From Deltaproteobacteria bacterium (GTDB taxonomy: Bacteria; Myxococcota_A; Polyangia; HGW-17), in the NCBI GenBank assembly GCA_016937155.1, contig JAFGWM010000038.1, positions 62,001 through 126,000 of the forward strand: a stretch of DNA of 64,000 nt, in the 5' to 3' direction. The first letter of the stretch is position 1. Each line of letters opens with the position of its first letter. The notes beneath the pieces were generated by a model. The model searched no databases and was not told where the DNA came from. It saw only the letters and a list, made by a program, of their open reading frames with translations. The position numbers and the translations under genes were made by a program. Positions 7,208-49,384 of the stretch are shown here, piece by piece.

Positions 7208-8296
7208 ATGGAAAAACGTGTTAAAGATATTGTTTTCTTCGGAAGCACTTATGAATACAACCTTTTCAGGCAGGGAATTTCAACTCCGGTAGGATATTCA
7301 CTTCGAAAAGTTGAAAACAGTCCACTTGACGAGGAATGTGATCTTCTTGTTACAGGACATATGCTTCCTGAATTCGACAGCAAAGTTATAACTTCCAGTA
7401 GAATTACAGGGAAAGGTCCTGAAAATATCCTTGTTATTGCACATGGTTCCTACCCGATGGAAGGAGCACCCTATCCGGAAGATCCTCATAGTGGCAGTTA
7501 TCACTTCCAGTGGATATCTGATACTGCAATGGCAAAATGGCTTGTCCAGATGGTTGAGGATCAGCAAAATGCACACTACAGCTACAGTGAACTTCACAAG
7601 CGTATTGTTTTGCTGGTGGAGGATGAAATCTCTTTTGCAAGTTACATTATTCCTCTGATAATGGAAGAACTTGAGACTAGAACTCTTTCACTGCTCCCGG
7701 AAGAACAAAAAAATACGGGTGACAAAACCTATAGTGAACGCCCCATTTTACTCGTTGCTGCCAACTATGAACAGGCTGTTAAATATCTGGAAAAATACAG
7801 TGATAGAATGGTGGGCGTTATTTCAAGCCTCGGTTTCCCGAAAGACCAGAAAAATAATCTTGATTCAGGCTTTGATCTTATCAGGAAGGTAAAATCTCTT
7901 CCATTTGGTATACCCGTTGTAATTTTATCTTCACAGGAAAACAAAAGAAAACCCGTAATGGAAATAGGTGGGGCATTCCTTCATAAACACTCACCGGACC
8001 TACTAAAATCACTTAGAAAAGAAATGCTGGATTATTTTGGATTTGGCGATTTTATTTTCAGAATGCCAGCAGATAGTCGTTCAGAGGTTGCAAGAGCCAG
8101 AAATCTGGTTGAACTTAGAAATTGTCTTGAATGGATTCCAATAGAATCATTTACTTTTCATGCTGAAAAAAGGCACTTCAGCAACTGGCTGGGCGTACAT
8201 GGCTATCTGAAGGAAGCTGAAATAATCAGGCCTATATCTCCATCAGAGGGGGAAAAAGCCAGAAAAGAACTGATTTCTCTACTTGAAAAACTTTAG
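7208..8296 (+). CDS. Receiver-like protein with the FGFGDFIFR...HFSNWL module seen in PEP/pyruvate-binding (PPDK_N-type) proteins
   Basis: FGFGDFIFRMPADSRSEVARARNLVELRNCLEWIPIESFTFHAEKRHFSNWLGVHGYLKEAEIIRP; no PPDK_N domain follows. Confidence 0.5.
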   Translation: MEKRVKDIVFFGSTYEYNLFRQGISTPVGYSLRKVENSPLDEECDLLVTGHMLPEFDSKVITSSRITGKGPENILVIAHGSYPMEGAPYPEDPHSGSYHFQWISDTAMAKWLVQMVEDQQNAHYSYSELHKRIVLLVEDEISFASYIIPLIMEELETRTLSLLPEEQKNTGDKTYSERPILLVAANYEQAVKYLEKYSDRMVGVISSLGFPKDQKNNLDSGFDLIRKVKSLPFGIPVVILSSQENKRKPVMEIGGAFLHKHSPDLLKSLRKEMLDYFGFGDFIFRMPADSRSEVARARNLVELRNCLEWIPIESFTFHAEKRHFSNWLGVHGYLKEAEIIRPISPSEGEKARKELISLLEKL

Positions 8297-8297
8297 T

Positions 8298-9224
8298 TCA
8301 TCTTCCAAAAACATAATCTTCACTATAAATTAAATCCTCACAGTTCATCTCATTGGTCACCCTTATCCCATAAAAATTACCTGGAATACCAGGAACCGGA
8401 GATAATACCGGATTTACTTTTCTTACAATATCCAGTTCTGAAGCATTACACAATCGAGGCTCATTCTGACCCAACGGAACAATAGTGCACCCTAAAACCC
8501 TCTGTTCAATACTCCAGTCACTTCTCCCCAAAATAAGATCCTGACTGCCAAAAATAGAATCGGTATTCAAAGTGGCTCTCATCACCATAAAGATAGTTCT
8601 AACATCAATACCAGGAATGTTCTCCGCCTGAAATGTAACCCCTGGAAATCCATCGTTATCCATATCAAAAACACAATCGGTTTCAACTGGAGTAATACAA
8701 TCAGGATAATAATCCAACATAGGATCATTCAGTTTATCCTCTATCTGAATACTAAATACAAAAGGTACTTCAGGAAAACGTATAGCTGCACATGTTTTAT
8801 GTTCAGGTGCATTCAAAACAGTTTTTACAGTTTCCAGCTCAAGGAAAATACTTTCATCCATCAACATCTGTGTAGGCCCACTCTGTCCCGGAATAAAAAT
8901 TGCGGGGATTTTCAGATGACAAAGGCTCAATTCCATTGAGTCAGCATCATCCTTATTAATTCGCATTAAAAGCAACAATCTTGTCATTGCTCTTGTTTCA
9001 ATTATTCCGCTGGAACTTATAAAAACACTTAAATTCACCCTCATAGCAAAGGTGGAATGATCATCTGCATCATCTACCAGTTCAATTGATTCATCACAAA
9101 CCAGGCCGCTGTCGGGATTACTGGAAATCATATTACAGTCATCGACAGATTCAGTGTCATTTCCGTCACACATATATACAGCAAAAGCGAGCTGGATGGA
9201 CATAAGCCAGACTTTTAACATCAA
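8298..9224 (-). CDS. Hypothetical exported protein
   Basis: 308 aa ORF with N-terminal hydrophobic leader; no recognised domain. Confidence 0.55.
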   Translation of the reverse strand: MMLKVWLMSIQLAFAVYMCDGNDTESVDDCNMISSNPDSGLVCDESIELVDDADDHSTFAMRVNLSVFISSSGIIETRAMTRLLLLMRINKDDADSMELSLCHLKIPAIFIPGQSGPTQMLMDESIFLELETVKTVLNAPEHKTCAAIRFPEVPFVFSIQIEDKLNDPMLDYYPDCITPVETDCVFDMDNDGFPGVTFQAENIPGIDVRTIFMVMRATLNTDSIFGSQDLILGRSDWSIEQRVLGCTIVPLGQNEPRLCNASELDIVRKVNPVLSPVPGIPGNFYGIRVTNEMNCEDLIYSEDYVFGR

Positions 9225-9233
9225 TCCACCAGT

Positions 9234-11300
9234 CTACAGCTCACCAAATGGCTGGATGCTTACATTACTGTCAAGTTCCTGATAACTCAAAACCCTTACA
9301 TCGGGAACCTCAATAATAAGTAACTGTCTCAAATATCTTCTCACATCCATGGAACTCACCACAGTCAAAGGTGCCACACCTCCATTTCTTTTCAATTCAA
9401 TGGCCTTTTGCTGTATCTCAGATGCAGCATCGGGATCAACACTCAAAAAACTTCCATGAAGCCCTTTCTGTATACCTGCTCTTATTTCGTCCTCAGTCTC
9501 TTCACTGGCAATATATACACCAAGAAGATTACCATCCGAAAGTGAACCGGAAATCTCCTTTTTTAAATCAATCCTGACATATTCAGTAAGAATAAGAGGA
9601 TCACCCTCACTCTGAAGCCATTTCTTAAGAGAGTACATAATTCTATCAAGAGGACGAATTGAAATACCCTCTTCAAGAAGTCTTTTTAAAATTTCATTTA
9701 GTATAGTAAGGTTTACCGGTGCAGGGTAGCATTCTTCTACAAGAGCACTCTGAGTTTTCTCAAGAGAATTAACCAGTATTCTCGCAGTATCAGGATTCAT
9801 CAGCTCAAAAAGATTTTTTTCAATAACTGCAGCTGAATGCTGGAATATGAATTCATCTGCATCAAGAATTTTGTCTGGGGGCAAACTGGAAAGAATTGAA
9901 TCATCCTTTATTGAGTAAGCCACAAGTTCGGGCAAAGCAAAGTCTACAGACGAAAAAAAAGATGGTGATATATCAAGAGTTGAAACATCACCCAAAAATA
10001 TTATCTGATCCCTGCTGAGAAAACCACCGGCATATCTTTGTTCCCTTATATAAATATTATATTTTCCACTGCCAATTCCGGGAGAATGAATAAGCTTCAC
10101 TGGGGGTATCAGCATTCCATATTTCCAGAAAAGAGTATTTCGCAATTCTGAAAAATACTGTTTTATCATGTCAGAATCAAATACTTCATCCCCGGCACCT
10201 ATTTCCACCATCAGCATTTTAAGGGGAGGAACAAGTGCTCCCTTCTCCACATCAGAATCACCTTCTCTGGTTATAGGAGCTTCCTCTTCTTCATAGCTTC
10301 TCTGAGAATTTTTCCTGAGCCTGAACATTAAAAATACAAGTCCTGATCCCAGAATAAAAAATGGAATTCCCGGCATTCCAGGCACCAGAGCGAGAAGAAT
10401 AAGCAAACCACCGGTATATCCTAATGCAACAGGCTGAGATGTTATCTGTGAAAGTATATCACCTCCAAGTTGAGATCCTTTTTCCTCACTTGCAACTCTT
10501 GTTATTATGAAACCGCTGGAAAGACTTATTAAAAGTGAAGGAATCTGAGAAACCAGACCATCACCAATTGTAAGTACACTATACGTCTGTAGAGCTTCTG
10601 ACGCGGTCATATCCATATAGGCAATACCTGTTCCTAAGCCAGCAAGAATATTAATTGCTGTAATTATAAGACCTGCAATCGCATCTCCTTTTACAAATTT
10701 CATAGCCCCATCCATGGCCCCATACATCTGACTCTGACGCTGTAGATCTGATCGCTGTCTCCGGGCCTGCTCATAACTGATATGGCCACTCCTTAGTTCG
10801 GCGTCAATTGACATCTGTTTACCCGGCATTGCATCAAGGGTAAATCTAGCTGCAACCTCAGCCACTCTTTCCGAACCTTTAGCTATTACCACAAACTGGA
10901 TTATAGTCAGAATTAAAAACACAACTCCGCCCACTATAAGATTTCCTGATACAACAAACTGTCCAAATGAATCAATTACTGTTCCAGCATCTGCATTGAG
11001 GAGTATCAGACGGGTTGAACTGACATTAAGCCCAAGCCTAAACATCGTTGCAATAAGTAGCATACTGGGAAAGGCTGCAATTTTAAGAGGCTCTGTTATA
11101 TGAAGAGCAACCAGCAAAAGTGTGGCACTTATTGCAATATTCAAAGTCAAGAGAAGATCAAGTATAAATGTGGGAAGAGGAATGACCATAAGAATCAAAA
11201 TGGCCATGACAAGACCGGCAACTGCCAGATTACCGAATTTACCTATATGATTAGTTTGATTTCTCAAGCCTGAATACTCCGTAAAGCCCAGGGGATACAA
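9234..11300 (-). CDS. SctV/FlhA-family (FHIPEP) type III export apparatus protein
   Basis: ATMFRLGLNVSSTRLIL, RFTLDAMPGKQMSIDAELRSG, YGAMDGAMKFVKGDAIAGL, LTIGDGLVSQIPSLLISLSSGFIITR, C-term VLSYQEL; the AMKFVKGDAIAG form favours SctV over FlhA; exact start uncertain because the ORF overlaps the upstream gene. Confidence 0.88.
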   Translation of the reverse strand: MYPLGFTEYSGLRNQTNHIGKFGNLAVAGLVMAILILMVIPLPTFILDLLLTLNIAISATLLLVALHITEPLKIAAFPSMLLIATMFRLGLNVSSTRLILLNADAGTVIDSFGQFVVSGNLIVGGVVFLILTIIQFVVIAKGSERVAEVAARFTLDAMPGKQMSIDAELRSGHISYEQARRQRSDLQRQSQMYGAMDGAMKFVKGDAIAGLIITAINILAGLGTGIAYMDMTASEALQTYSVLTIGDGLVSQIPSLLISLSSGFIITRVASEEKGSQLGGDILSQITSQPVALGYTGGLLILLALVPGMPGIPFFILGSGLVFLMFRLRKNSQRSYEEEEAPITREGDSDVEKGALVPPLKMLMVEIGAGDEVFDSDMIKQYFSELRNTLFWKYGMLIPPVKLIHSPGIGSGKYNIYIREQRYAGGFLSRDQIIFLGDVSTLDISPSFFSSVDFALPELVAYSIKDDSILSSLPPDKILDADEFIFQHSAAVIEKNLFELMNPDTARILVNSLEKTQSALVEECYPAPVNLTILNEILKRLLEEGISIRPLDRIMYSLKKWLQSEGDPLILTEYVRIDLKKEISGSLSDGNLLGVYIASEETEDEIRAGIQKGLHGSFLSVDPDAASEIQQKAIELKRNGGVAPLTVVSSMDVRRYLRQLLIIEVPDVRVLSYQELDSNVSIQPFGEL

Positions 11301-11739
11301 TTCTTACGTTTATTTTCGGTCCTCGAAGGAAAGAAATAACCACACCGATAGTACGGGCATCAATAGTGACCCATGCAAGATGAGTAAATAGAGGATCTCC
11401 CTCAAAGCTCATTCCACTCAAGGCATCATTTAAATATTCATGTATTTCCTCTATATCAGCATTTTCTGAAGGAAGAGAAATTACAACAGGATCTTCATCT
11501 GGAATATCAGCACTGCAACTGGGCATATCTGGATTTCTTTCAAATCTGATACTTGCATCCAGAGTAGAACTGCTGACATCTCTAATATCCAGAACAAGTA
11601 CACTGCAGACATCCAGACCTTTTCTGACAAGTCTTGTCTGCTTTATTCCTCCACGCCACTCACCCCTGAATTCTTTTATTTCCTGACATGACGAGAAAAG
11701 AAACAAAATTCCAAGAGAAAAAATTATTGTTCTGAACAT
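11251..11739 (-). CDS. Lipoprotein of unknown function
   Basis: MFRTIIFSLGILFLFSSCQE leader/lipobox; 3' end overlaps the predicted 5' end of the SctV-like gene by ~50 nt. Confidence 0.6.
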   Translation of the reverse strand: MFRTIIFSLGILFLFSSCQEIKEFRGEWRGGIKQTRLVRKGLDVCSVLVLDIRDVSSSTLDASIRFERNPDMPSCSADIPDEDPVVISLPSENADIEEIHEYLNDALSGMSFEGDPLFTHLAWVTIDARTIGVVISFLRGPKINVRIVSPGLYGVFRLEKSN

Positions 11740-11849
11740 TTTTATCACCGAATACAATTTACAATTTAGAAACAAGTGAAATTTCCATTAACTGATGTTA
11801 TACACATACTACTGTATTTTGTAACAGTATTTCTAAAAGGAAATATAGG

Positions 11850-13418
11850 ATGTCAATCCAGTTCTTCACAGTCAACTCTACCACGAACATAAAAGTGATT
11901 CCACCCGGACGGAATTTTTATTTTATATCTCTTTTTGCTCTTATACTGTTTCATGGTTTTGCAGTCTCTGTCAGCGCACAGAATTCCAGCGTAAATGATG
12001 AAAAATCCTTAAAAGCAAACATTCAAAAAACCACTTCTTCCTCTAAATCCATAAATAAGAACTGCAAGTGTGACTGCCCCGGAGCACAAACTTCTGAGCA
12101 TAAAAACCTCTATATCGAAAAAATTCTGGTGGAAGGGTCCGGAAGTAAAAGTTCATCTCTGATAAAAAGAACTATATCAATAAAAGAAGGCACATGGATA
12201 CGTCCGGATGATCCTTCAATAGAACAGAGCAGACTGAAACTATTCGCTCTGGGTTTTTTTGATTCAGTTGATTTCTATTTTAGAAAAGGCTCTTCCCGGG
12301 GAAAAGTAATTCTTGTGATTAATACACGAAAAAGAGGCACCCTTCTTTTAAAACATATATTTATGGGCTCCAGCAGAATTATTCCTTTCTGGCTTGGTCT
12401 GAGTGTGGAAGAAAAGAATTTTTTAAATATGGGAATTACTCTTGGCGGAAGCGTACTTGCAACTACCAAGGCTGATATTATGAATGGAAGATCCCAGTAC
12501 GGAGCTGAAGCTTACGCATTTTTTCCCAGTTTTCTCGGTATTCCTCTATTTTTGGGAACCAGATTCAACTATGGCAGCGAATTTTACAGAATATACGGTT
12601 CCCCCGACAATGGAGATCCTGAAAATTTCCTCTCAATGCCGTATATCAGGGGTGGATACAAACTGGAAACATTTTTTCCTCTTAACTCATTCTGGTTTAG
12701 GGTTTCGTTTAAAAACGATCATTATATTACAAACTTACCTTCTGAAACAATCAGGCATTTTGAAGATGGCACTTCAAAAAAAATTAATTTTGGAATTGAA
12801 GACGGTAATAGCGTGATTGGTTCAATAAATCTTAAACTCATACATGATACAACAGATCGTCCATTTTTACCAACCAGGGGACATTTTTTCAGTATGGGGG
12901 TTAAATTCGGAGCTCCAGTCTATTTTGGTGCATATTCATTCACACGTGGAGAACTCAATTATAAACAGTATTTCAGTTATGAAAAACATATTTTTTCCTT
13001 ACATTTCATGGCTGGAGCCATTGCAGGTAATGTACCGTTGTTTGAAAAATATTATATAGGTGACATTCAGGATCTGGTAGCACCAAGAGCTCTTGAAATG
13101 AATATGAGTGTGGCTCCTACCCCAAATTTCCTGGGCACAAATATTACAGAAACCAGGTGGGGTACAACTGCATTCAAGTTTTGTGTAAGATATGATTACC
13201 CATTTATGGGAAACTGGGGAATAATATACCGGGGCAATGTCTTTATAGGTGCCGGTATCCTAGGCTTGGCAACAGTTTCTCAACTGAAATACAGGGAAAG
13301 CGACTTATGGAGCAGTATTCCCATTGATCTTACTTTTGACTTCGGGATTCATCTTGATACCAGATATGGAATGTTTAAGCTTTCGATATCAAACGCAATA
13401 GGAAGACTCCCCTTTTAG
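11850..13418 (+). CDS. Omp85/BamA-TamA-family outer membrane protein with a single POTRA-like segment
   Basis: POTRA-like IEKILVEGSGSKSSSLIKRTISIKEG...SRLKLFALGFFDSVDFYFRKG; LPTRGHFFSMGVKFGAPV and C-terminal beta-barrel strands. Confidence 0.75.
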   Translation: MSIQFFTVNSTTNIKVIPPGRNFYFISLFALILFHGFAVSVSAQNSSVNDEKSLKANIQKTTSSSKSINKNCKCDCPGAQTSEHKNLYIEKILVEGSGSKSSSLIKRTISIKEGTWIRPDDPSIEQSRLKLFALGFFDSVDFYFRKGSSRGKVILVINTRKRGTLLLKHIFMGSSRIIPFWLGLSVEEKNFLNMGITLGGSVLATTKADIMNGRSQYGAEAYAFFPSFLGIPLFLGTRFNYGSEFYRIYGSPDNGDPENFLSMPYIRGGYKLETFFPLNSFWFRVSFKNDHYITNLPSETIRHFEDGTSKKINFGIEDGNSVIGSINLKLIHDTTDRPFLPTRGHFFSMGVKFGAPVYFGAYSFTRGELNYKQYFSYEKHIFSLHFMAGAIAGNVPLFEKYYIGDIQDLVAPRALEMNMSVAPTPNFLGTNITETRWGTTAFKFCVRYDYPFMGNWGIIYRGNVFIGAGILGLATVSQLKYRESDLWSSIPIDLTFDFGIHLDTRYGMFKLSISNAIGRLPF

Positions 13419-36736: not shown

Positions 36737-38104
36737 TTAAAAAAAAGTCAGTTTAGATGTTTCCGATATGGATTCATTTAATAATCTAATCATATTTTCA
36801 GGAGTTTTCACCCTGATTACCTCCCCTGATTCAATAAGATCCAACATATACTCTATACCTGGCAGATCTGCTATAAATATTTTACAGCCAAACCCCAGCG
36901 CCTCAAAAAGAGCAGTAGAAAAAACCCCAAGAGTAATCTCCGATTCGGCAAAAAACTGATAAAGTGGTGTGTCACTTGAATCTACAACAATAAAATTATT
37001 TAACTTAAGACCTTCACTTAGAATTTTATAATCTTTTTTCCATAGGGAATATTCACCAGGATGAAGTTTATAAATAATCCTGAAGTCTGGTAATTTTCGG
37101 GCCAGACTTACTGCAAATTCCGACAATTCCTTTCCAATAGCCCCTTGAGAAATTACAAGAATCTGATTCGGTATCCTGTTAATTCCCTGATAATTATTCT
37201 TCTGACTTCTAAAATGTGAAAAACCTTTAACAACAATGTCTTCAGGTCCAATAGGAAAATCCGCCGCAGTATTCCAGTAACTGCCAAAAGAAAAGAATTT
37301 ATCGGGAAAGTGTTTAATTTTTTTTATTTTTCCAGGGAAACTGTATCCGAGATGATAGCGACTCAGAGTTCCATGCTGGAGTTCCACTGTCTGAATGCCC
37401 AAATCCTTTGCAGCTCCTATTAACGATTTTTTATAGAATGAATACGAAACCACCAGATAAATAACTGAGGGTTTCTTAATATCAAGTAGTTTTCTATAAT
37501 AACTGTAATTGATCCTGTAGGCTGTAATCTCTTTGGCCAATAACTTTTTCAGATTAAATTCAATTCCAAAATGCTCATTGATCTCTTTTTCAACAATCCC
37601 AAGAGTTGCATTTTCATCCGGTTTGAATCTGTAGGGGACAATATTCATGATCCCGTGTGAAACCAGGGTAATATAATCAAGATAGTGTATATTTTCAGCA
37701 GGTCTGGAAAGATGCTTTCCCTGATAAGCACTCTCAAATACTTCCCAGTTTGAGTCTTTAAAAGAATCCGTCAAATATTTTGTATATATATCAATATATT
37801 CCCCATCAATCGGAATTTTTCTTGCGTGGTCGAAAACTAAAATGTCCGTTTTTTTGAAATTGCCAAATGGATTGGACAACAAATTTTTTCCAAATGAAAA
37901 AACAGATTTAATCCTGTCTACATGGGGAATTTTCTCGCTGTGAGGAGTATGAAATGTTCCTGTTTTTGAAGCAATGGCATAATAGATATTCATCCTAGTG
38001 ATCTGCCAGGCTAAAACCCCCCCTGCTTCAAACTCAAGCAGGTGATATTGATCTTCCAGTTCCCAGATTTTTTCACAAATGTCCTTTATGCTGAATAAAG
38101 TCAA
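36737..38104 (-). CDS. Capsule/surface polysaccharide glycosyltransferase-like protein
   Basis: QTVELQHGTLSRYHLGYSFPG, FRIIYKLHPGEYSLWKKDY, GVFSTALFEALGFGCKIFIADLPG; within glycan operon. Confidence 0.6.
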   Translation of the reverse strand: MTLFSIKDICEKIWELEDQYHLLEFEAGGVLAWQITRMNIYYAIASKTGTFHTPHSEKIPHVDRIKSVFSFGKNLLSNPFGNFKKTDILVFDHARKIPIDGEYIDIYTKYLTDSFKDSNWEVFESAYQGKHLSRPAENIHYLDYITLVSHGIMNIVPYRFKPDENATLGIVEKEINEHFGIEFNLKKLLAKEITAYRINYSYYRKLLDIKKPSVIYLVVSYSFYKKSLIGAAKDLGIQTVELQHGTLSRYHLGYSFPGKIKKIKHFPDKFFSFGSYWNTAADFPIGPEDIVVKGFSHFRSQKNNYQGINRIPNQILVISQGAIGKELSEFAVSLARKLPDFRIIYKLHPGEYSLWKKDYKILSEGLKLNNFIVVDSSDTPLYQFFAESEITLGVFSTALFEALGFGCKIFIADLPGIEYMLDLIESGEVIRVKTPENMIRLLNESISETSKLTFF

Positions 38105-39528
38105 TTTAACACCTCTTCAGGGGTATCAGAGTAAATAAAAATATAAAAAGAAACTGCTGTAATAATGAACTTAACGGGTAACTGGAAATACCAGTGATTA
38201 ATTTTAACCAATCCATACATATAAATCGCAGCAATAGCAAACAGGATAAAAAGATGGGGTAAAAGAACCATGAGGGGTATTGTTTTTTCTTTTAAAATAT
38301 ATTTCGCGTTAATAAAGTGCAGAGAAAAAAGAAGTATATAAGAAAATAAAGTGGTGTGAGCAGCAACTTCATATCCAAAAATTGGTATGAGCCAATAGTT
38401 TAGCCCGATATTTACAAACCCCGCAATAAATGTATTGAGAGATATTAATTCAGTTCTTTTCCTGTAAGAAGCATATTGAAAATAAAGTGTATATAGAAAA
38501 ACAAATACGTAACCCATAACAATAACGGGAACTATTCCGATAGCATGATAGTACTGAGAATCAGCCAGAATATGAATTACTTCCGAACTGAATAAAATAA
38601 TAATAACTGCAGCAAAATAGATTTTTTTTGCATAACCCTTAACCATACGGTTAATTTTATCTGTATTCCTCTCATTGTATTCCTGAAAAAAAATAGGATG
38701 CCAGGCTTTGGTGGTTGCCATGACTATTACATTCATTGCCATACCAACATCATATGCAAATGAATATATTCCAGTGTTCAGTTTGGTGGATAACTGATTG
38801 ATTATTATTCTGTCAAAGTATCCAAGAATAAACATGGACATTGCGTGGGGAATTAAGGGGATAGAAAACCTGAGAGTATATTTCACATGTTTCCAGTCAA
38901 ATGAAAATTTTGCAATTTTCACAAGCATATAGAGTGAATATCCGGATAATAGCAAAGTAACAACAAATTCTCCGTATATTTTGCCAAAATATCTGTTTTC
39001 CTTCATCAAAAGCATCAGGCCTATTGAAGAAAATAGTATAAGACCGGATCTCACAACTGAGAGAATGCTATATACGGATGACTGCTGACTTCCATTCAGA
39101 TATCGCAAATATATCTCAAGACTTACCATGGTACAGGAGATAATAGCAGCATATACAAAAACCTTTTCATCAATGTTTAAAAACAACGAAATTCTTGTTT
39201 TAAAAATCATAAGTAAAATTAAAACAACAATACTGAATGAAATTATGAACAGGAGATTACTTCCCAAAGCTGCTTCAAAATCATTCTTTTCATTGTCCAG
39301 ATAATAACGGCCTATTCCTCCCCTGAAATTCAATCCAAAAATTATCGGAAGAAGAGTAAGTAGAGAATTGAAAATACTTAAAACACCGTATCCGGATGGA
39401 AGAAGCAGTCTTGTAAATATCGGAATTGTAGCTGCAACCAGCAGATACTGCACCAGAGATCCGGACAGATAATTCCGGCTGTGCCGCATCAATTCCTTAT
39501 TTTCTTTACGTATCAGACGATTAAACAT
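38101..39528 (-). CDS. Polysaccharide flippase (Wzx/MATE-type)
   Basis: Multi-TM; SRNYLSGSLVQYLLVAATIPIFTRLLLPSGYGVLSIFNSLL typical N terminus. Confidence 0.88.
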   Translation of the reverse strand: MFNRLIRKENKELMRHSRNYLSGSLVQYLLVAATIPIFTRLLLPSGYGVLSIFNSLLTLLPIIFGLNFRGGIGRYYLDNEKNDFEAALGSNLLFIISFSIVVLILLMIFKTRISLFLNIDEKVFVYAAIISCTMVSLEIYLRYLNGSQQSSVYSILSVVRSGLILFSSIGLMLLMKENRYFGKIYGEFVVTLLLSGYSLYMLVKIAKFSFDWKHVKYTLRFSIPLIPHAMSMFILGYFDRIIINQLSTKLNTGIYSFAYDVGMAMNVIVMATTKAWHPIFFQEYNERNTDKINRMVKGYAKKIYFAAVIIILFSSEVIHILADSQYYHAIGIVPVIVMGYVFVFLYTLYFQYASYRKRTELISLNTFIAGFVNIGLNYWLIPIFGYEVAAHTTLFSYILLFSLHFINAKYILKEKTIPLMVLLPHLFILFAIAAIYMYGLVKINHWYFQLPVKFIITAVSFYIFIYSDTPEEVLN

Positions 39529-39552: not shown

Positions 39553-40680
39553 TTAGGGAAGTGAATTTATAAATTTTTTCATAATATTAAAGTGTTCATC
39601 AATAATCACTGGGAATCCCGTATACCGTTTGAATCCATTTTCCAGCTCATTATCGAGAAACATTGAAGTTCTCCCCACACTAAGAGTATCTGCTTTAATA
39701 ATATCTCTGACACCCCTCAATGCTCTGGAAATTTCATGAACCGGAACTTTTTCAATCAGGGATGAAAAAAATCTTCTCTGAAAACCATCTATACCCATAA
39801 GATTCAGTGATTCACTGACACCCCTTCCACGCCCATCCTCATGAATTAACAGTGAAGGTACACGTCTGGAAATGAAATGCAGATGTGCATGTACACGATA
39901 TCCCACATGCAGATCACAAGTATTATAGAAATCTATATTTTTAAGATCCCATGCACCATCCACAATAGTAAAACCCATTTTTTCAACTTTATTTCTTATA
40001 TAATTATCATTTTTCTCATTGGATCTTGGAGTAAATTCATCATCTGCATTCAACCCCCTGTGGAAACAACAGAAAAGTTCACTTTCTGGAAACTTTTTTC
40101 TCAGCATTGCTGCCATATCAATACTCTGATCTCTAAAAAGATGTTTCTGGGCAGGAGTATATACAAGTTTCCTGATTTTTTCCGGAGGATAAAACTTCCT
40201 GTTTATTGAGGGAAGATGGTACCACACCGGGCATCCAGTCATGAGAGCATTCTCTATCCCATTCCTCTTAAGAATTTCCAGAGTATGGTAATCCCGGCAT
40301 GAAACAAACTCAGATTCTCTGGATATTCTTTTCAGAAGAGTCATTGAATCAGAAGTGAAGTTATAATTTCTAATCGTTGCAAAATCACCAGGCTCACCTT
40401 TCCATCCAAGACCCATTGGTATAATTGGAACCCTGATTTTACTGGTATCAGGAACAAACTTGTAAACCCCTGGATAAAAGTGTGGCTGAAATCCTGGGCC
40501 ACCAAGAATTATTACTGCTGAAGACCTGTTAATAATCTCAAGATGAGGCTCCAGATTTTCCCATGAAGGAAGCTGGACATGTTCATGTTCCGGCCTGAAA
40601 TGAGAAAGTAATTTTCTGGCTCTATCAGTTATAAGAAAATCCCCAATATTTTTTTTTGCACCACTTAGAACTATATACAT
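39553..40680 (-). CDS. Polysaccharide pyruvyl transferase family protein
   Basis: NIGDFLITDRARKLL, SSAVIILGGPGFQPHFYPG, CDLHVGYRVHAHLHFISRRVPSLLI. Confidence 0.78.
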   Translation of the reverse strand: MYIVLSGAKKNIGDFLITDRARKLLSHFRPEHEHVQLPSWENLEPHLEIINRSSAVIILGGPGFQPHFYPGVYKFVPDTSKIRVPIIPMGLGWKGEPGDFATIRNYNFTSDSMTLLKRISRESEFVSCRDYHTLEILKRNGIENALMTGCPVWYHLPSINRKFYPPEKIRKLVYTPAQKHLFRDQSIDMAAMLRKKFPESELFCCFHRGLNADDEFTPRSNEKNDNYIRNKVEKMGFTIVDGAWDLKNIDFYNTCDLHVGYRVHAHLHFISRRVPSLLIHEDGRGRGVSESLNLMGIDGFQRRFFSSLIEKVPVHEISRALRGVRDIIKADTLSVGRTSMFLDNELENGFKRYTGFPVIIDEHFNIMKKFINSLP

Positions 40681-40695
40681 GTTGATCCCTTCAAC

Positions 40696-41760
40696 CTAAA
40701 GATGTTCCCAGGTTAAAAATTCATCTTCAGGAAGGTTCTTTTTCAGTTTTCTCCCAAGAACCTTTTCCAGTTCCCCCGGAGAAATTCCTGCTCCCGGTCT
40801 TTTAAAAGTAACCATATCTTTTGAAAGAATCTCTCCCTCATTCAAATTTCTTACAGCTACAATACTTCTTCTGGCCTGTTTTCTGGAACCGGTCTCACAT
40901 GCCAGAGGCTCTTTTCTGTACTGTCCGTTAATTTCCTTTATCATTTTACAATTATTTACAAATATTTTCAGGTCATCAGGATCCATGGCATGATAATGAT
41001 CATTTCCCTTAAGGGTTTTATCCAGAGTGAAATGCTTTTCAATAACCTGTGCACCGTAGAGCCACGCAGTAGTAAGCACCATCATTGAAAAATCAGGTCT
41101 GGTATGATCACTGTATCCGGAAATGTAATCTGGAAAAACAGCCCGGAGATGCTTGATCATATTCAGGTTCGCATCCTCAAACATAGTAGGATAAGATAAA
41201 ACACAGTGCATAATACATATCCTGGTGTTTCCGGTTTCTTCAACTGCGGCAACAGCACGTTCAATTTCCCCGATTGTAGAAGCCCCTGTGGACAGCAGCA
41301 CCGGCTTTCCTTTTTCTGATATATGTCTGATAAAGGGTAAGTTTGTAATGTCAGATGAGGATATCTTATAAAAAGGCATTAACTCTTCAAGATAGTCAGC
41401 AGAACCGAAATCAAAGGGGGTGGAGCAAAATATTCCACCTGTTTTTTCAGTAAACCTGGCCAGTTCCCTGTACTCCTCTTCACCAAAATGATCAAATTTT
41501 TTAAAGAGTTCATACTGTGAATTTGTTGGTTCTTCAGTCTGATCCCAGTATGCAGGTGAATTTTTTGAAGCAATCTTGCCAGCCTTGTATGACTGAAACT
41601 TAACAGCGTGAGCCCCACTTTCCAGAGCACTTAATATCATTTTTTTTGCTGCTTCAATTACAGATATTCCATATTTTTCTGCAATATCATAGTAATTAAC
41701 TCCTATTTCAGCAATAATGAAGGGATTGGCTTCACCAGATAATTCTTTTAAAAAACTCAT
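40696..41760 (-). CDS. N-acetylneuraminate/pseudaminate synthase family protein with C-terminal SAF domain
   Basis: PFIIAEIGVNYYD, AVKFQSYKAGKIAS, FYKISSSDITNLPFIRHI, GYSDHT, VIEKHFTLDKTLKGNDHYHAMDPDDL, RRSIVAVRNLNEGEILSKDMVTFKRPGAGI. Confidence 0.88.
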   Translation of the reverse strand: MSFLKELSGEANPFIIAEIGVNYYDIAEKYGISVIEAAKKMILSALESGAHAVKFQSYKAGKIASKNSPAYWDQTEEPTNSQYELFKKFDHFGEEEYRELARFTEKTGGIFCSTPFDFGSADYLEELMPFYKISSSDITNLPFIRHISEKGKPVLLSTGASTIGEIERAVAAVEETGNTRICIMHCVLSYPTMFEDANLNMIKHLRAVFPDYISGYSDHTRPDFSMMVLTTAWLYGAQVIEKHFTLDKTLKGNDHYHAMDPDDLKIFVNNCKMIKEINGQYRKEPLACETGSRKQARRSIVAVRNLNEGEILSKDMVTFKRPGAGISPGELEKVLGRKLKKNLPEDEFLTWEHL

Positions 41761-41765
41761 TGTAA

Positions 41766-43430
41766 TTATTTCCTCTCTATTGCTCTTTTTTCAAATTCAC
41801 CCAGAATTAAACCGAGAACATTTTCAAATCCGGATCTTAAATCATTCTGAAGCATCAGTGTATGGCACTTTTTCCTTAACTCCAGATTGGTTATAAGTTC
41901 CATTGCTGTGTCAGAAAGTTCCTGTATGCTGACCTCTGTTCCCAGACCGAGATTAATAATTCCATTCTCACTTCTGGCAAAGGTATGCTTTAGTTCCCTA
42001 TTGTTCTGAGCCATAATTATAACTGGAGTTCCCAGAGAAGCTATTTCATATACCGTTCTTCCTGCACTGGCAAAAATAAGATCCGCCTGATACATGAATT
42101 TACTAATATTTTTAATATCCTGTAACAAATGAATATCAAGGTAAGAGTCCTTGATTCTGGATTTTAATCGTTCGATATGCTCATACCCCAAACCAAGCAC
42201 TATAGTGATAGTGATATTTTCCATTTTCAGAATTTCAAGGGCATTTATCACTTTTTCTGTGTAGTTGTGCTGATCTGTACCTCCAAAAGTAATAAGGATC
42301 TCCCTAACCTCACTGGATACATCACGTGGATTTAACATGAAAAATTCATCCCTCAGGAGATACCATTCTTTTCCGAAATAGTGATTCTTAACCGGATATG
42401 ATTCCTCGTAAAGTGCATTTATCACAATATCAGCTACTTTGGAACCATTTCCCATATCTTCAAAATTTACACAGAAGTAATTATCTTTTTTGAGTTTTTC
42501 CATATAATCAGAAGAAGTATCCAGTATATCATTTATAACTATATCAGGTTTAAATTCGTCAACTATCCTGAATAGTTCTTCTTCATTTGTAAATGTCCTG
42601 TAAGGATAAAAGGAGGATGCAATTTTATCCACACCAAGGGAATGATTTTTGTCTGATACAAATAGCAACTCATGATCAATGAGCCTGGTGGCCAGCAAAA
42701 GCGTCCGGTAAACATGCCCCATCCCGATTCGATTGTATCCATCAACTCTGAAAAGAATTTTCTTTCTTTTCATAAGTTTTTCACAAACCCACCAGTCCAC
42801 ATAATGATCAATATCAATGGACTCGCTGGACTCTACTTCGAAAAGATCCACAATCTCTCCAAACCTCGAATCCGGTGTTACACAACTTCTTTTTGTAATT
42901 ACAAAACCCCCGGTCTCCCGGAATTTAGGTGGCAGGTATTGTCTGTTAAGTCGCTTCTCATACTCCGGAACAAACTTTTCATTTCTGACGGTCCAGGTAA
43001 GATGCCTGTCATCAACAGCACTTAAAACCGTATCGGAGTTCTTTTCAAAAAACCGTTCAATCGCACTATCGATTGTTTCGCTCTTCAAAAGGGGACTTGT
43101 GGGCTGAAGAGTAATTACCACATCATATTTTTCATTAAATTTTTTCTCACAGAATTTAACAGCATGAAATATCACCGGGTCAAGAGGAATACTATCAAGA
43201 GCAAGATTCTCAGGTCTCATAACAACATCACAACCAAAGGATTCCGCCACATGTTCAATTTCCTCATCATCAGTTGAAACCACCACATGATCTATTAAAC
43301 GGCTGGTTTTTGCATTCCCTATGGCCCAGGCAATAAGAGGTTTTCCATTCATATGTCTGATATTTTTTCTAGGTATACCCTTGGATCCGCCCCTGGCCGG
43401 TATGACAGCAATAATTTTTTTTATCGGCAT
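41766..43430 (-). CDS. Fusion: N-terminal CMP-nonulosonate cytidylyltransferase (NeuA/PseF-like) + C-terminal PseG-like hydrolase domain
   Basis: N-term IAVIPARGGSKGIPRKNIRHMNGKPLIAWAI and LQPTSPLLKSETIDSAIE; from ~aa 220 ILFRVDGYNRIGMGHVYRTLLLA, ILITFGGTDQHNYTEKVINAL, ADLIFASAGRTVYEIASLGTPVIIMAQNNREL. Confidence 0.88.
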   Translation of the reverse strand: MPIKKIIAVIPARGGSKGIPRKNIRHMNGKPLIAWAIGNAKTSRLIDHVVVSTDDEEIEHVAESFGCDVVMRPENLALDSIPLDPVIFHAVKFCEKKFNEKYDVVITLQPTSPLLKSETIDSAIERFFEKNSDTVLSAVDDRHLTWTVRNEKFVPEYEKRLNRQYLPPKFRETGGFVITKRSCVTPDSRFGEIVDLFEVESSESIDIDHYVDWWVCEKLMKRKKILFRVDGYNRIGMGHVYRTLLLATRLIDHELLFVSDKNHSLGVDKIASSFYPYRTFTNEEELFRIVDEFKPDIVINDILDTSSDYMEKLKKDNYFCVNFEDMGNGSKVADIVINALYEESYPVKNHYFGKEWYLLRDEFFMLNPRDVSSEVREILITFGGTDQHNYTEKVINALEILKMENITITIVLGLGYEHIERLKSRIKDSYLDIHLLQDIKNISKFMYQADLIFASAGRTVYEIASLGTPVIIMAQNNRELKHTFARSENGIINLGLGTEVSIQELSDTAMELITNLELRKKCHTLMLQNDLRSGFENVLGLILGEFEKRAIERK

Positions 43431-46531: not shown

Positions 46532-47041
46532 TTAGAATGGAGCAAATCCACTGTCAGCCCAGTAGATATTTTTAATTGAGTTGAGTTCATTGGAAAGATA
46601 GTCATAATGGGTTTTCTCCCAGTCAACCATATTTCCAAAAAAAGATTTTACCGTAATATCATCCGTAGACTCAAACAATTTTCTATAGTGTTCAATTGTG
46701 GATAATTCCAGTTGAAGTCCGATGGAGAGAGCACTCATTTCATAGTGCGCCTGAGCTGCCCTTTTTGTAAATTCAGGAGTAAAAAATGTCTTATCATTTT
46801 CCATCTCAGGAATTACTAATTTCTCCTCAGAAAAAACTCCTTTTTCAGCCAGACTTTTATACTGCAAAATAAGAAGTTCTTCGTGTTTTTTCTCTTCCTC
46901 AGCAAGTTCACGAAAAGTTGCTTTTCCCTGAACATCATCGGTCATGGAGCTGGCCATCATATAAAAATTATAGCCATCACGCTCAATCATTATACCTCTG
47001 GCTAATCCTTCGAGAATTTTTTTCTTTATTTCTTCCAGCAT
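46532..47041 (-). CDS. Ferritin-like domain protein (no rubredoxin domain)
   Basis: ERDGYNFYMMAS...FRELAEEEKKHEELL and ELSTIEHYRKLF...DWEKTHYDYL ExxH pairs. Confidence 0.8.
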   Translation of the reverse strand: MLEEIKKKILEGLARGIMIERDGYNFYMMASSMTDDVQGKATFRELAEEEKKHEELLILQYKSLAEKGVFSEEKLVIPEMENDKTFFTPEFTKRAAQAHYEMSALSIGLQLELSTIEHYRKLFESTDDITVKSFFGNMVDWEKTHYDYLSNELNSIKNIYWADSGFAPF

Positions 47042-47052
47042 TTCAGCCTCCT

Positions 47053-47571
47053 TTAATCAAGGTGTGGATGTTCATGCTCTAAAAACCATGCTGCAGGATC
47101 TGTATAGAAACTTTGCATATCAGTCAGTACAGAGTGGTGTTCCTTCTCTTCTTCAATCATTTTAAGAATAAATGCTTTTTCTTTTTCTTCAGTGGCCATT
47201 GAAAGGTATTTTTCATAGTATTTTACTGCTGATGATTCAAACTCCACTCCGACTTCCAGAGCTTTAAGTTCATCACTTGAATCCGAAATCTGATCCTTGT
47301 GCTTTTTAGCAAGCTGTCTGAATATTTCACTTAAAGACGACTGTTTGTGGGATGGAAGATTATCAAGATCAACAGACCAGTCCTCTTTGTTTGTAATTGC
47401 AGAATAAATTTCCTTTATTCTTTCAATATGAACGAGTTCATCATCCCTGAGCATAGTAAATACTGTTTTCCCTACTTCATTGGAAACTTTTTCAACTATT
47501 TCTGAATAAAATTTATAGCCCTTTTCTTCCAGAGTAAGGGCTGCTGATAACATTTCACCAAGTTTTTCCAT
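47053..47571 (-). CDS. Ferritin-like domain protein (no rubredoxin domain)
   Basis: EEKGYKFYSEIV...LRDDELVHIERI and EFESSAVKYYEKYL...EEEKEHHSVL. Confidence 0.8.
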   Translation of the reverse strand: MEKLGEMLSAALTLEEKGYKFYSEIVEKVSNEVGKTVFTMLRDDELVHIERIKEIYSAITNKEDWSVDLDNLPSHKQSSLSEIFRQLAKKHKDQISDSSDELKALEVGVEFESSAVKYYEKYLSMATEEKEKAFILKMIEEEKEHHSVLTDMQSFYTDPAAWFLEHEHPHLD

Positions 47572-47594
47572 TTAAAACTCCTGAACAAAAAGTA

Positions 47595-48170
47595 TTAATA
47601 ATTCAAAGCCTCAATTTCGTAATAACCCTGTGGGTGCTGACAAACAGGACAAATCTTTGGAGCTTCTTTTCCTTCAAAAATAAAACCACATTTGATACAG
47701 GCCCATCTCTGAGGTTCATCTCTTTTGAAAACCTGCTCTTTCTCTATATTTTCAAGCAACTTCAGGTATCTCTTCTCGTGCTCAGCTTCAACTTTGGCGA
47801 GATTTCGATAGAAAAGAGCGATATCCTTAAAGCCCTCTTTTTCGGCAGTATCTGCGAATTCCGGGTAGAGTACACTCCATTCTTCATTCTCACCCATAGC
47901 TGCTGCCTTGAGATTCTCAGATGTTGTACCGATCCTCCCTGCGGGATATGAAGCTGTAATTTCCAGATCTCCACCCTCAAGCCACTGAAACATTCTTTTG
48001 GCGTGCTGCTCTTCATTCATGGCTGTTTCCATGAAGATTGCACTTATTTGTTCATAGCCTTCTTTTTTTGCAGTTTTAGCAAAAAATGTGTAACGATTCT
48101 TTGCCTGAGATTCTCCTGCAAAGCTTTTCAACAGATTTTTTTCGGTTTCAGTTCCTTTTACACCTGACAT
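47595..48170 (-). CDS. rbr: Rubrerythrin
   Basis: Ferritin-like N-terminus (ESQAKNRYTFFAKTAKKEGYEQISAIFMETAMNEEQHAKRMF) plus rubredoxin-like WACIKCGFIFEGKEAPKICPVCQHPQGYYE. Confidence 0.93.
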   Translation of the reverse strand: MSGVKGTETEKNLLKSFAGESQAKNRYTFFAKTAKKEGYEQISAIFMETAMNEEQHAKRMFQWLEGGDLEITASYPAGRIGTTSENLKAAAMGENEEWSVLYPEFADTAEKEGFKDIALFYRNLAKVEAEHEKRYLKLLENIEKEQVFKRDEPQRWACIKCGFIFEGKEAPKICPVCQHPQGYYEIEALNY

Positions 48171-48358: not shown

Positions 48359-49384
48359 ATGAAAAAGTTCTTATTATTCATCGCCATTACACAGATCTTA
48401 GCAAGTTGTGATGATTCGGAGACAAAAAACAACATTAGAGATGATCATTGTGATAACAGTACTGAAATTATTTGCGATACATCAGTACCTCAGTGTGGTG
48501 AGGACACTATCTTAGCCTACATTGATGGATGCTATGAGTGCGTCAATCCTGAAACATGCCTGCCTCCATGGGAGGAACCAGTTGTTTGTTATGGTGATGA
48601 CGAATGCGAATACAATGAATGGTGCAACCCATGTGGAGGATCTTCATGTGAAAACTGTGAGGACTGCGTTAGCACATGTACTGCCCACAGCTGCACTACT
48701 CAGACTCCAGAGGAACTGGAGTGCTATATGACCAGGCCTGAATGCTCAGAAAATTATACGGCAATTATTGAGGATGGCTGCTATCTGTGTATAGACCCCG
48801 TTACATGTGAAACCTCAACAACTGACTGTATTTATGACTCTGATTGCGATACCGATCAATACTGTGGTTCAGATGGCATATGTACTTTAAACCCCTGTTC
48901 TACTGATGAAGAACTCAATTGTTATGCCGAAAGACCTGAGTGCGGACCTGGCAGGACAGCCCTTGTAATCAACGGCTGCTGGCGGTGTGCCTGGCTTGAT
49001 GGATGTGTTATCGACAAGGATGAGGACTGCAATGATGGCACACAGGCGCTCTGTGATATGATGGAACCTGTTTGTGAAGCAGGGGAAATTCTCGCTGTTC
49101 AGAACTACTGTTATGCTTGTGTAAACCCTACCACATGCATGGGCTGGGGTGATAACGAATGTTTATCAGATGAAGATTGCAGTCCTAACAAATACTGTAA
49201 TGGCTGTGCAACATCTTCATGTCCTGATTGTGATGACTGCATTGGAGCGTGTATTGAACATGAATGTCCCACTGAGTATTTCCTCACATGTTCAGAGGAT
49301 CGTCCTGATTGTGATACCGGAGAATTTGCGGTTATTGAAGAAGGCTGCTGGAGTTGCACTTCAGAGGAGATGTGTATAAACTGA
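48359..49384 (+). CDS. Modular Cys-rich lipoprotein
   Basis: Lipobox LASC; five C-x7-P-x-C-x(n)-C-[YW]-x-C-x(5)-C modules interleaved with CxxDxxC...YC modules; AAAGGAG upstream. Confidence 0.72.
   Translation: MKKFLLFIAITQILASCDDSETKNNIRDDHCDNSTEIICDTSVPQCGEDTILAYIDGCYECVNPETCLPPWEEPVVCYGDDECEYNEWCNPCGGSSCENCEDCVSTCTAHSCTTQTPEELECYMTRPECSENYTAIIEDGCYLCIDPVTCETSTTDCIYDSDCDTDQYCGSDGICTLNPCSTDEELNCYAERPECGPGRTALVINGCWRCAWLDGCVIDKDEDCNDGTQALCDMMEPVCEAGEILAVQNYCYACVNPTTCMGWGDNECLSDEDCSPNKYCNGCATSSCPDCDDCIGACIEHECPTEYFLTCSEDRPDCDTGEFAVIEEGCWSCTSEEMCIN

Follow-up and report, generated by a model that had tools for sequence, protein, structure and literature searches.

A NeuA-like cytidylyltransferase fused to a PseG-like hydrolase and paired with a NeuB-family synthase in bacteria and archaea

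In the 64,000-nucleotide stretch of DNA analyzed here (the window), a single open reading frame joins a NeuA-like cytidylyltransferase to a PseG-like GT-B hydrolase, and a gene for a NeuB-family synthase lies directly downstream (Table 1). Two domains with intact motifs, a linker of constant length, the pairing with NeuB and a set of recurring partner genes are all evident at the level of sequence. The fused enzyme is very likely bifunctional. Together with NeuB, it probably converts a UDP-hexosamine to a CMP-nonulosonate, and a mono-amino sugar, leading to a Neu-like product, is its most likely starting point, as opposed to the diamino sugar of pseudaminate.

The reading frame encodes 554 amino acids on the minus strand (43430..41766), begins with ATG and contains no internal stops. 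A first-pass annotation had described it as a fusion of a cytidylyltransferase and a PseG-like hydrolase, and this description was upheld by Pfam, NCBIfam and structure matches, which divide the protein at about residue 221 (~1-221 and ~222-554). Motifs found in the reading frame include PARGGSKGIPRKN, RVDGYNRIGMGHVYRTL, GGTDQHN and SAGRTVYEIASLGTP. The N-terminal half matched Pfam CTP_transf_3 over residues 7-139 with 107.8 bits (cut-off 22.6); it has the NeuA fold and carries the ARGGSKGIPRKN and DxD motifs, and its best alignments were to solved CMP-NeuAc synthetases, the closest structure being NeuA 6ifd. The match of residues 7-219 to NCBIfam PseF (130.9 bits) was far under the cut-off of 205.7. 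In an alignment of 51 homologues, the cytidylyltransferase residues R13, S16 and K22 were invariant, and D206-x-D208 corresponds to a metal-ligand-type motif.

Table 1. Coordinates of the fusion domains, their module neighbors and other nonulosonate genes of the host.
Feature	Position	Strand	Evidence
N-terminal domain, NeuA-like CMP-nonulosonate cytidylyltransferase, residues 1-221	42768..43430	-	Pfam CTP_transf_3; Foldseek 6ifd; conservation over 51 homologues
C-terminal domain, PseG-like GT-B UDP-sugar hydrolase, residues 222-554	41766..42767	-	NCBIfam PseG; 3hbm alignment; Foldseek; H239 conservation
NeuB-family nonulosonate synthase with SAF domain, fusion partner	40696..41760	-	Pfam NeuB and SAF
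Polysaccharide pyruvyl transferase-family protein, recurrent partner	39553..40680	-	Pfam PF04230
Wzx-type flippase	38101..39528	-	Pfam Polysacc_synt
Candidate nonulosonate transferase, 455 aa, GT-B	36737..38104	-	Predicted fold; invariant His348-Pro349, Ser396-Thr397
Host pse-type cluster	L038 (G000 C43:42000-60000), 7362-13266		
Third host NeuB and PtmE-like nucleotidyltransferase, C36	L155 6438-7475 and 5351-6412		
Host NeuC-like gene, C72	L156 5949-7103		

For the C-terminal half, the top-scoring family was NCBIfam PseG (residues 224-479, 148.8 bits, and 151.2 in a genome scan, slightly below the cut-off of 153.55), and the closest solved structure was PseG of Campylobacter jejuni (3hbm), with the histidine of GxGH and the GGTD motif aligned. 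It has a GT-B fold, GxGH with a catalytic-type histidine (H239, window ~42714-42716) and GGxD, present here as GGTD, as well as SAGRT and QNxRExxH. An AlphaFold model computed from an alignment of 51 sequences had a mean pLDDT of 94.7 and a pTM of 0.89; sequence and fold together assign both domains with confidence. Foldseek matched its first half to NeuA 6ifd (TM 0.89 by target) and its second half to both MurG (3s2u, TM 0.77 by target) and PseG (3hbm, TM 0.75 by target).

The nearly equal fit of MurG raises the alternative that the C-terminal domain is a MurG/GT28-like glycosyltransferase, in which case the fusion would couple CMP-nonulosonate synthesis to glycan transfer. A match to Pfam Glyco_tran_28_C (20.9 bits, slightly under the cut-off) points the same way. 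This GT28 match is weak beside the 148.8 bits obtained with PseG, however, the PseG GxGH motif and its histidine are retained, and the module already contains dedicated transferase candidates. We consider a glycosyltransferase very unlikely.

Similar fusions occur well beyond the host. Within the same phylum, 284 genomes were searched and five further full-length fusions recovered (58-40% identity), one of which contains an in-frame TAG. A single-protein scan of genome contigs found none, but a profile built from the alignment added about 50 more from GTDB species genomes. Archaeal carriers are Methanobrevibacter, Methanohalophilus, Methanocalculus and haloarchaea; bacterial carriers belong to Bacillota, Bacteroidota, Pseudomonadota, Campylobacterota, Chloroflexota and Desulfobacterota-type genomes. 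In a sample of the genus Methanobrevibacter, matches were present in 66 of 67 genomes and full-length fusions in 61, making the fusion a near-core gene of gut Methanobrevibacter. Since full-length homologues are found in more than 50 other genomes, chance or the joining of two reading frames by an assembly error is excluded as the source of the window sequence.

The spacing between D208 in the first domain and G236 in the second is 28 residues in all 51 aligned fusions. Catalytic-type residues are retained in nearly all of these proteins, with H239 present in 50 of 51. The exceptions are few. Among full-length fusions, L076 carries H239R, and L074 carries D206N together with an altered D208; one half of each may be inactive. 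In a copy from the genus Methanobrevibacter (L154 3386-5052, G342), the halves lie in overlapping reading frames and the RGGSKG and GxGH motifs are gone, so that it looks like a decaying fusion. Such members could be taken to mean that the fusion arose by chance or by misassembly and that one of its domains is idle. Full-length proteins occur in more than 50 independent genomes, however, with the linker unvaried in length and both domains keeping their conserved residues, which makes that explanation extremely improbable.

When 51 fused cytidylyltransferase domains were placed on a tree with 37 unfused ones, the fused label required only two changes, and 50 of the 51 fused domains grouped together at an SH-aLRT of 90. 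The fused domains form essentially one clade. The simplest reading would be a single origin followed by broad horizontal spread, and the fusion looks either ancient or widely transferred. A standalone hydrolase of the fusion subfamily, with NDILNT and NFEDLG motifs, was found in Nitrosopumilaceae (L093 3393-4412) and could represent a pre-fusion or a split form. Two other candidates were rejected. The apparent triple fusions of L006 and L007 (1174 and 1100 aa) reflect the long open frames of GC-rich DNA, and NeuB lies in a different frame; a phage origin is not supported, a phage collection having given two weak, partial matches.

The first-pass annotation had also pointed out that the fused activities bracket a separately encoded NeuB step, and this holds. 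The neighboring NeuB, on the same strand, passes both of its Pfam cut-offs (PF03102, 255.3 bits; SAF, 49.5 bits) and falls below those of two more specific models, NeuB_NnaB (306 bits, cut-off 399.65) and PseI (226 bits, cut-off 340.25). Of 53 fusion loci, at least 50 have a NeuB gene within eight genes. The three exceptions include L035 and L036, which are attributable to a gene-caller effect in GC-rich DNA, since NeuB does stand next to the fusion in L006 and a NeuB search also detects it. In most fusion genomes the linked NeuB is the only one, and each of seven Methanobrevibacter genomes searched encodes a single NeuB.

From this arrangement we infer both activities and the order of the steps. 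The PseG-like domain would hydrolyze a UDP-linked hexosamine to the free sugar, the adjoining NeuB would condense the freed sugar with phosphoenolpyruvate to form a nine-carbon nonulosonic acid, and the N-terminal domain would couple the product to CMP. The flippase, the pyruvyl-transferase-like protein and the GT-B transferase encoded alongside would then use the CMP-nonulosonate for a surface glycan. UDP-GlcNAc or UDP-ManNAc is the predicted origin of the starting sugar, which would then be mono-amino and give a Neu-like product.

The partner genes recur with the fusion. Neighborhoods were compared with 25 loci of unfused cytidylyltransferases from the same scan, which serve as a contrast set and not as a random sample: relatives of the pyruvyl-transferase-like protein were present at 20 of 53 fusion loci vs. 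none of the 25 unfused loci, and relatives of the 455-aa gene at 22 of 53 vs. 3 of 25. Flippases were found near 28 of the 53 fusion loci. The 455-aa protein, which accompanies the fusion in both archaea and bacteria, had no match in a Pfam scan. Its model has a GT-B fold that matched NeuC, TagF, WaaA and, further down, a polysialyltransferase. A His-Pro and a Ser-Thr pair are invariant in this protein and its 19 relatives, and the former resembles the HP motif of bacterial sialyltransferases, which binds CMP-Neu5Ac (PMC2169525). The 455-aa protein is therefore described here as a candidate nonulosonate transferase, possibly representing a new family.

Elsewhere in the window, by-eye reading identified three adjacent rubrerythrin/ferritin-like genes on the minus strand (46532-48170) and a lipoprotein-like protein of 341 aa with repeated Cys-rich segments (48359-49384).

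The module had at first been assigned to pseudaminate synthesis, a label that the present data do not support for the fusion. On that assignment the hydrolase substrate would be UDP-2,4-diacetamido-2,4,6-trideoxy-altrose and the CMP domain would activate pseudaminate, with PseB, PseC and PseH encoded elsewhere in the genome; a variant would have legionaminate made by a UDP route with SpsG/SpsE/SpsF-like proteins. The top score of PseG among the families matching the C-terminal half is consistent with such a pathway, as is the closest solved relative of the window synthase, Bacillus subtilis SpsE, which belongs to a UDP-linked legionaminate pathway (PMC7439481). The host also encodes PseB and PseC on contig C43. 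Nevertheless, the PseF, PseG and PseI cut-offs were all missed, and annotated PseI proteins form a clade that excludes the window NeuB but holds the host's own second NeuB copy. The window's module contains no PseB, PseC or PseH, and DegT/PseC-type aminotransferases accompany the fusion less often (4 of 53 loci) than the unfused cytidylyltransferase (9 of 25). Fusion hydrolases share the motifs NDILDT, NFEDLG, SAGRT and QNxRExxH; in standalone PseGs, DSY stands in place of NDILDT and NQ in place of QNxRExxH. One other fusion (G288) exceeds the PseG cut-off, with 154.8 bits, and the window protein stays under it.

The genes on C43 constitute a separate pse cluster comprising PseB, an SpsF-like cytidylyltransferase, PseG, a formyltransferase-like gene, PseI and PseC, the last scoring over its model cut-off. 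This composition suggests that the cluster makes N-formylated pseudaminate. Its PseB and PseC could possibly share a UDP-sugar pool with the fusion module. PseG and PseI of the cluster are copies distinct from the window genes. The host may also have a third, legionaminate-type system, to which a third NeuB and a PtmE-like nucleotidyltransferase (both on C36) and a NeuC-like gene (on C72) would belong.

Genomes that carry the fusion and lack upstream genes are the most informative. A full-length DegT/PseC-type (nonulosonate-type) 4-aminotransferase was absent from 11 fusion genomes when searched with a PseC model at 1e-30 and with Pfam DegT at 1e-8, which returned weak matches only (36-55 bits). 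Four of these are apparent isolates (Halorientalis regularis, Aerococcus kribbianus, Methanohalophilus euhalobius and Pseudomonas alcaligenes), and M. euhalobius encodes the NeuB nearest to that of the window (64% identity). NeuB is single and fusion-linked in 10 of the 11; in the remaining genome, G316, it spans two contig fragments. Without a 4-aminotransferase, the 7-amino nonulosonates pseudaminate and legionaminate could not be made in these genomes by known routes. PseC-like matches in two Methanobrevibacter genomes (G285 C7 and G290 C24) were rejected as a linked pseudaminate pathway, as their neighbors are unrelated and do not include PseB.

A mono-amino substrate is harder to reconcile with an archaeal report. 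Pseudaminic acid has been reported from Methanobrevibacter smithii (Lewis 2009, cited by PMC6137143), a member of a genus in which the fusion is near-universal, and this speaks for the pseudaminate assignment; if that sugar comes from a fusion module, the substrate there would be diamino, and the substrate range within the fusion family may vary. Weighing these points, we regard a pseudaminate or legionaminate role for the window enzyme as unlikely, and a mono-amino sugar is the favored substrate on the pattern of genes and motifs.

The source of a mono-amino precursor was considered in the same genomes. No UDP-GlcNAc 2-epimerase was found in six of the 11 aminotransferase-less genomes, no AGE (PF07221) in any of 14 genomes searched, which included all 11, and NanE was seen only in G329 and G316 among the genomes searched. 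Five genomes (G293, G297, G302, G312 and G326) were without 4-aminotransferase, 4,6-dehydratase, UDP-GlcNAc 2-epimerase, AGE and NanE alike, although four of the five are MAGs, in which absence could reflect incompleteness. Halorientalis regularis provides the strongest case for missing upstream genes. A tentative possibility is a widespread two-gene route, in which the fusion and NeuB alone would start from a sugar nucleotide commonly used for cell walls, UDP-GlcNAc (or UDP-ManNAc, given a 2-epimerase), and convert it to a CMP-sialic-acid-type donor, the PseG-like domain replacing NeuC and perhaps acting as a hydrolyzing 2-epimerase.

Each half of the fusion has well-characterized relatives. 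Like the C-terminal half, C. jejuni PseG (3hbm/3hbn) has a GT-B fold, the GxGH histidine, GGTD and a role before a NeuB-family synthase; the fusion hydrolase differs in sitting behind a cytidylyltransferase and exceeds the C. jejuni chain by ~50 residues. The N-terminal half shares its fold, the RGGSKGIPRKN loop and DxD with NeuA of Vibrio cholerae (6ifd) and Neisseria meningitidis (1eyr), which lack the additional C-terminal UDP-sugar hydrolase. In NeuA fusions known so far, the added domain is instead an esterase or a HAD phosphatase. In the PseG-PseH fusion (e.g. Parabacteroides, L121), a PseG domain is likewise joined to an enzyme of the same pathway, but the partner is an acetyltransferase and the surrounding pse cluster is complete, its PseF being standalone. 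SpsE, SpsF and SpsG of B. subtilis fill the same three roles of NeuB-type synthase, cytidylyltransferase and PseG-like protein, but as three separate chains and with SpsM, SpsC and SpsD for a diamino precursor (PMC7439481); the window module is without such genes.

Sequences of the fusion are surely already in databases. Our search of open-access literature, outside which most subscription journals fall, found no paper describing a cytidylyltransferase-PseG fusion, and in published work on the nonulosonates of Leptospira, Vibrionaceae and Clostridium, any fusions described were of other types.

If the proposed function is correct, a single-protein NeuA-hydrolase biocatalyst would be at hand and easy to test, and the automatic annotation of fusion-module genes as "pseudaminate" would need to be viewed in this light. 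A compact fused enzyme would serve to make sialic-acid-type sugars in many bacteria and archaea, almost every sampled Methanobrevibacter among them, and the precursor of these sugars would bypass the known PseB/PseC and NeuC routes. The finding would also be relevant to the dispute over whether the nonulosonate of M. smithii is Neu5Ac or pseudaminate.
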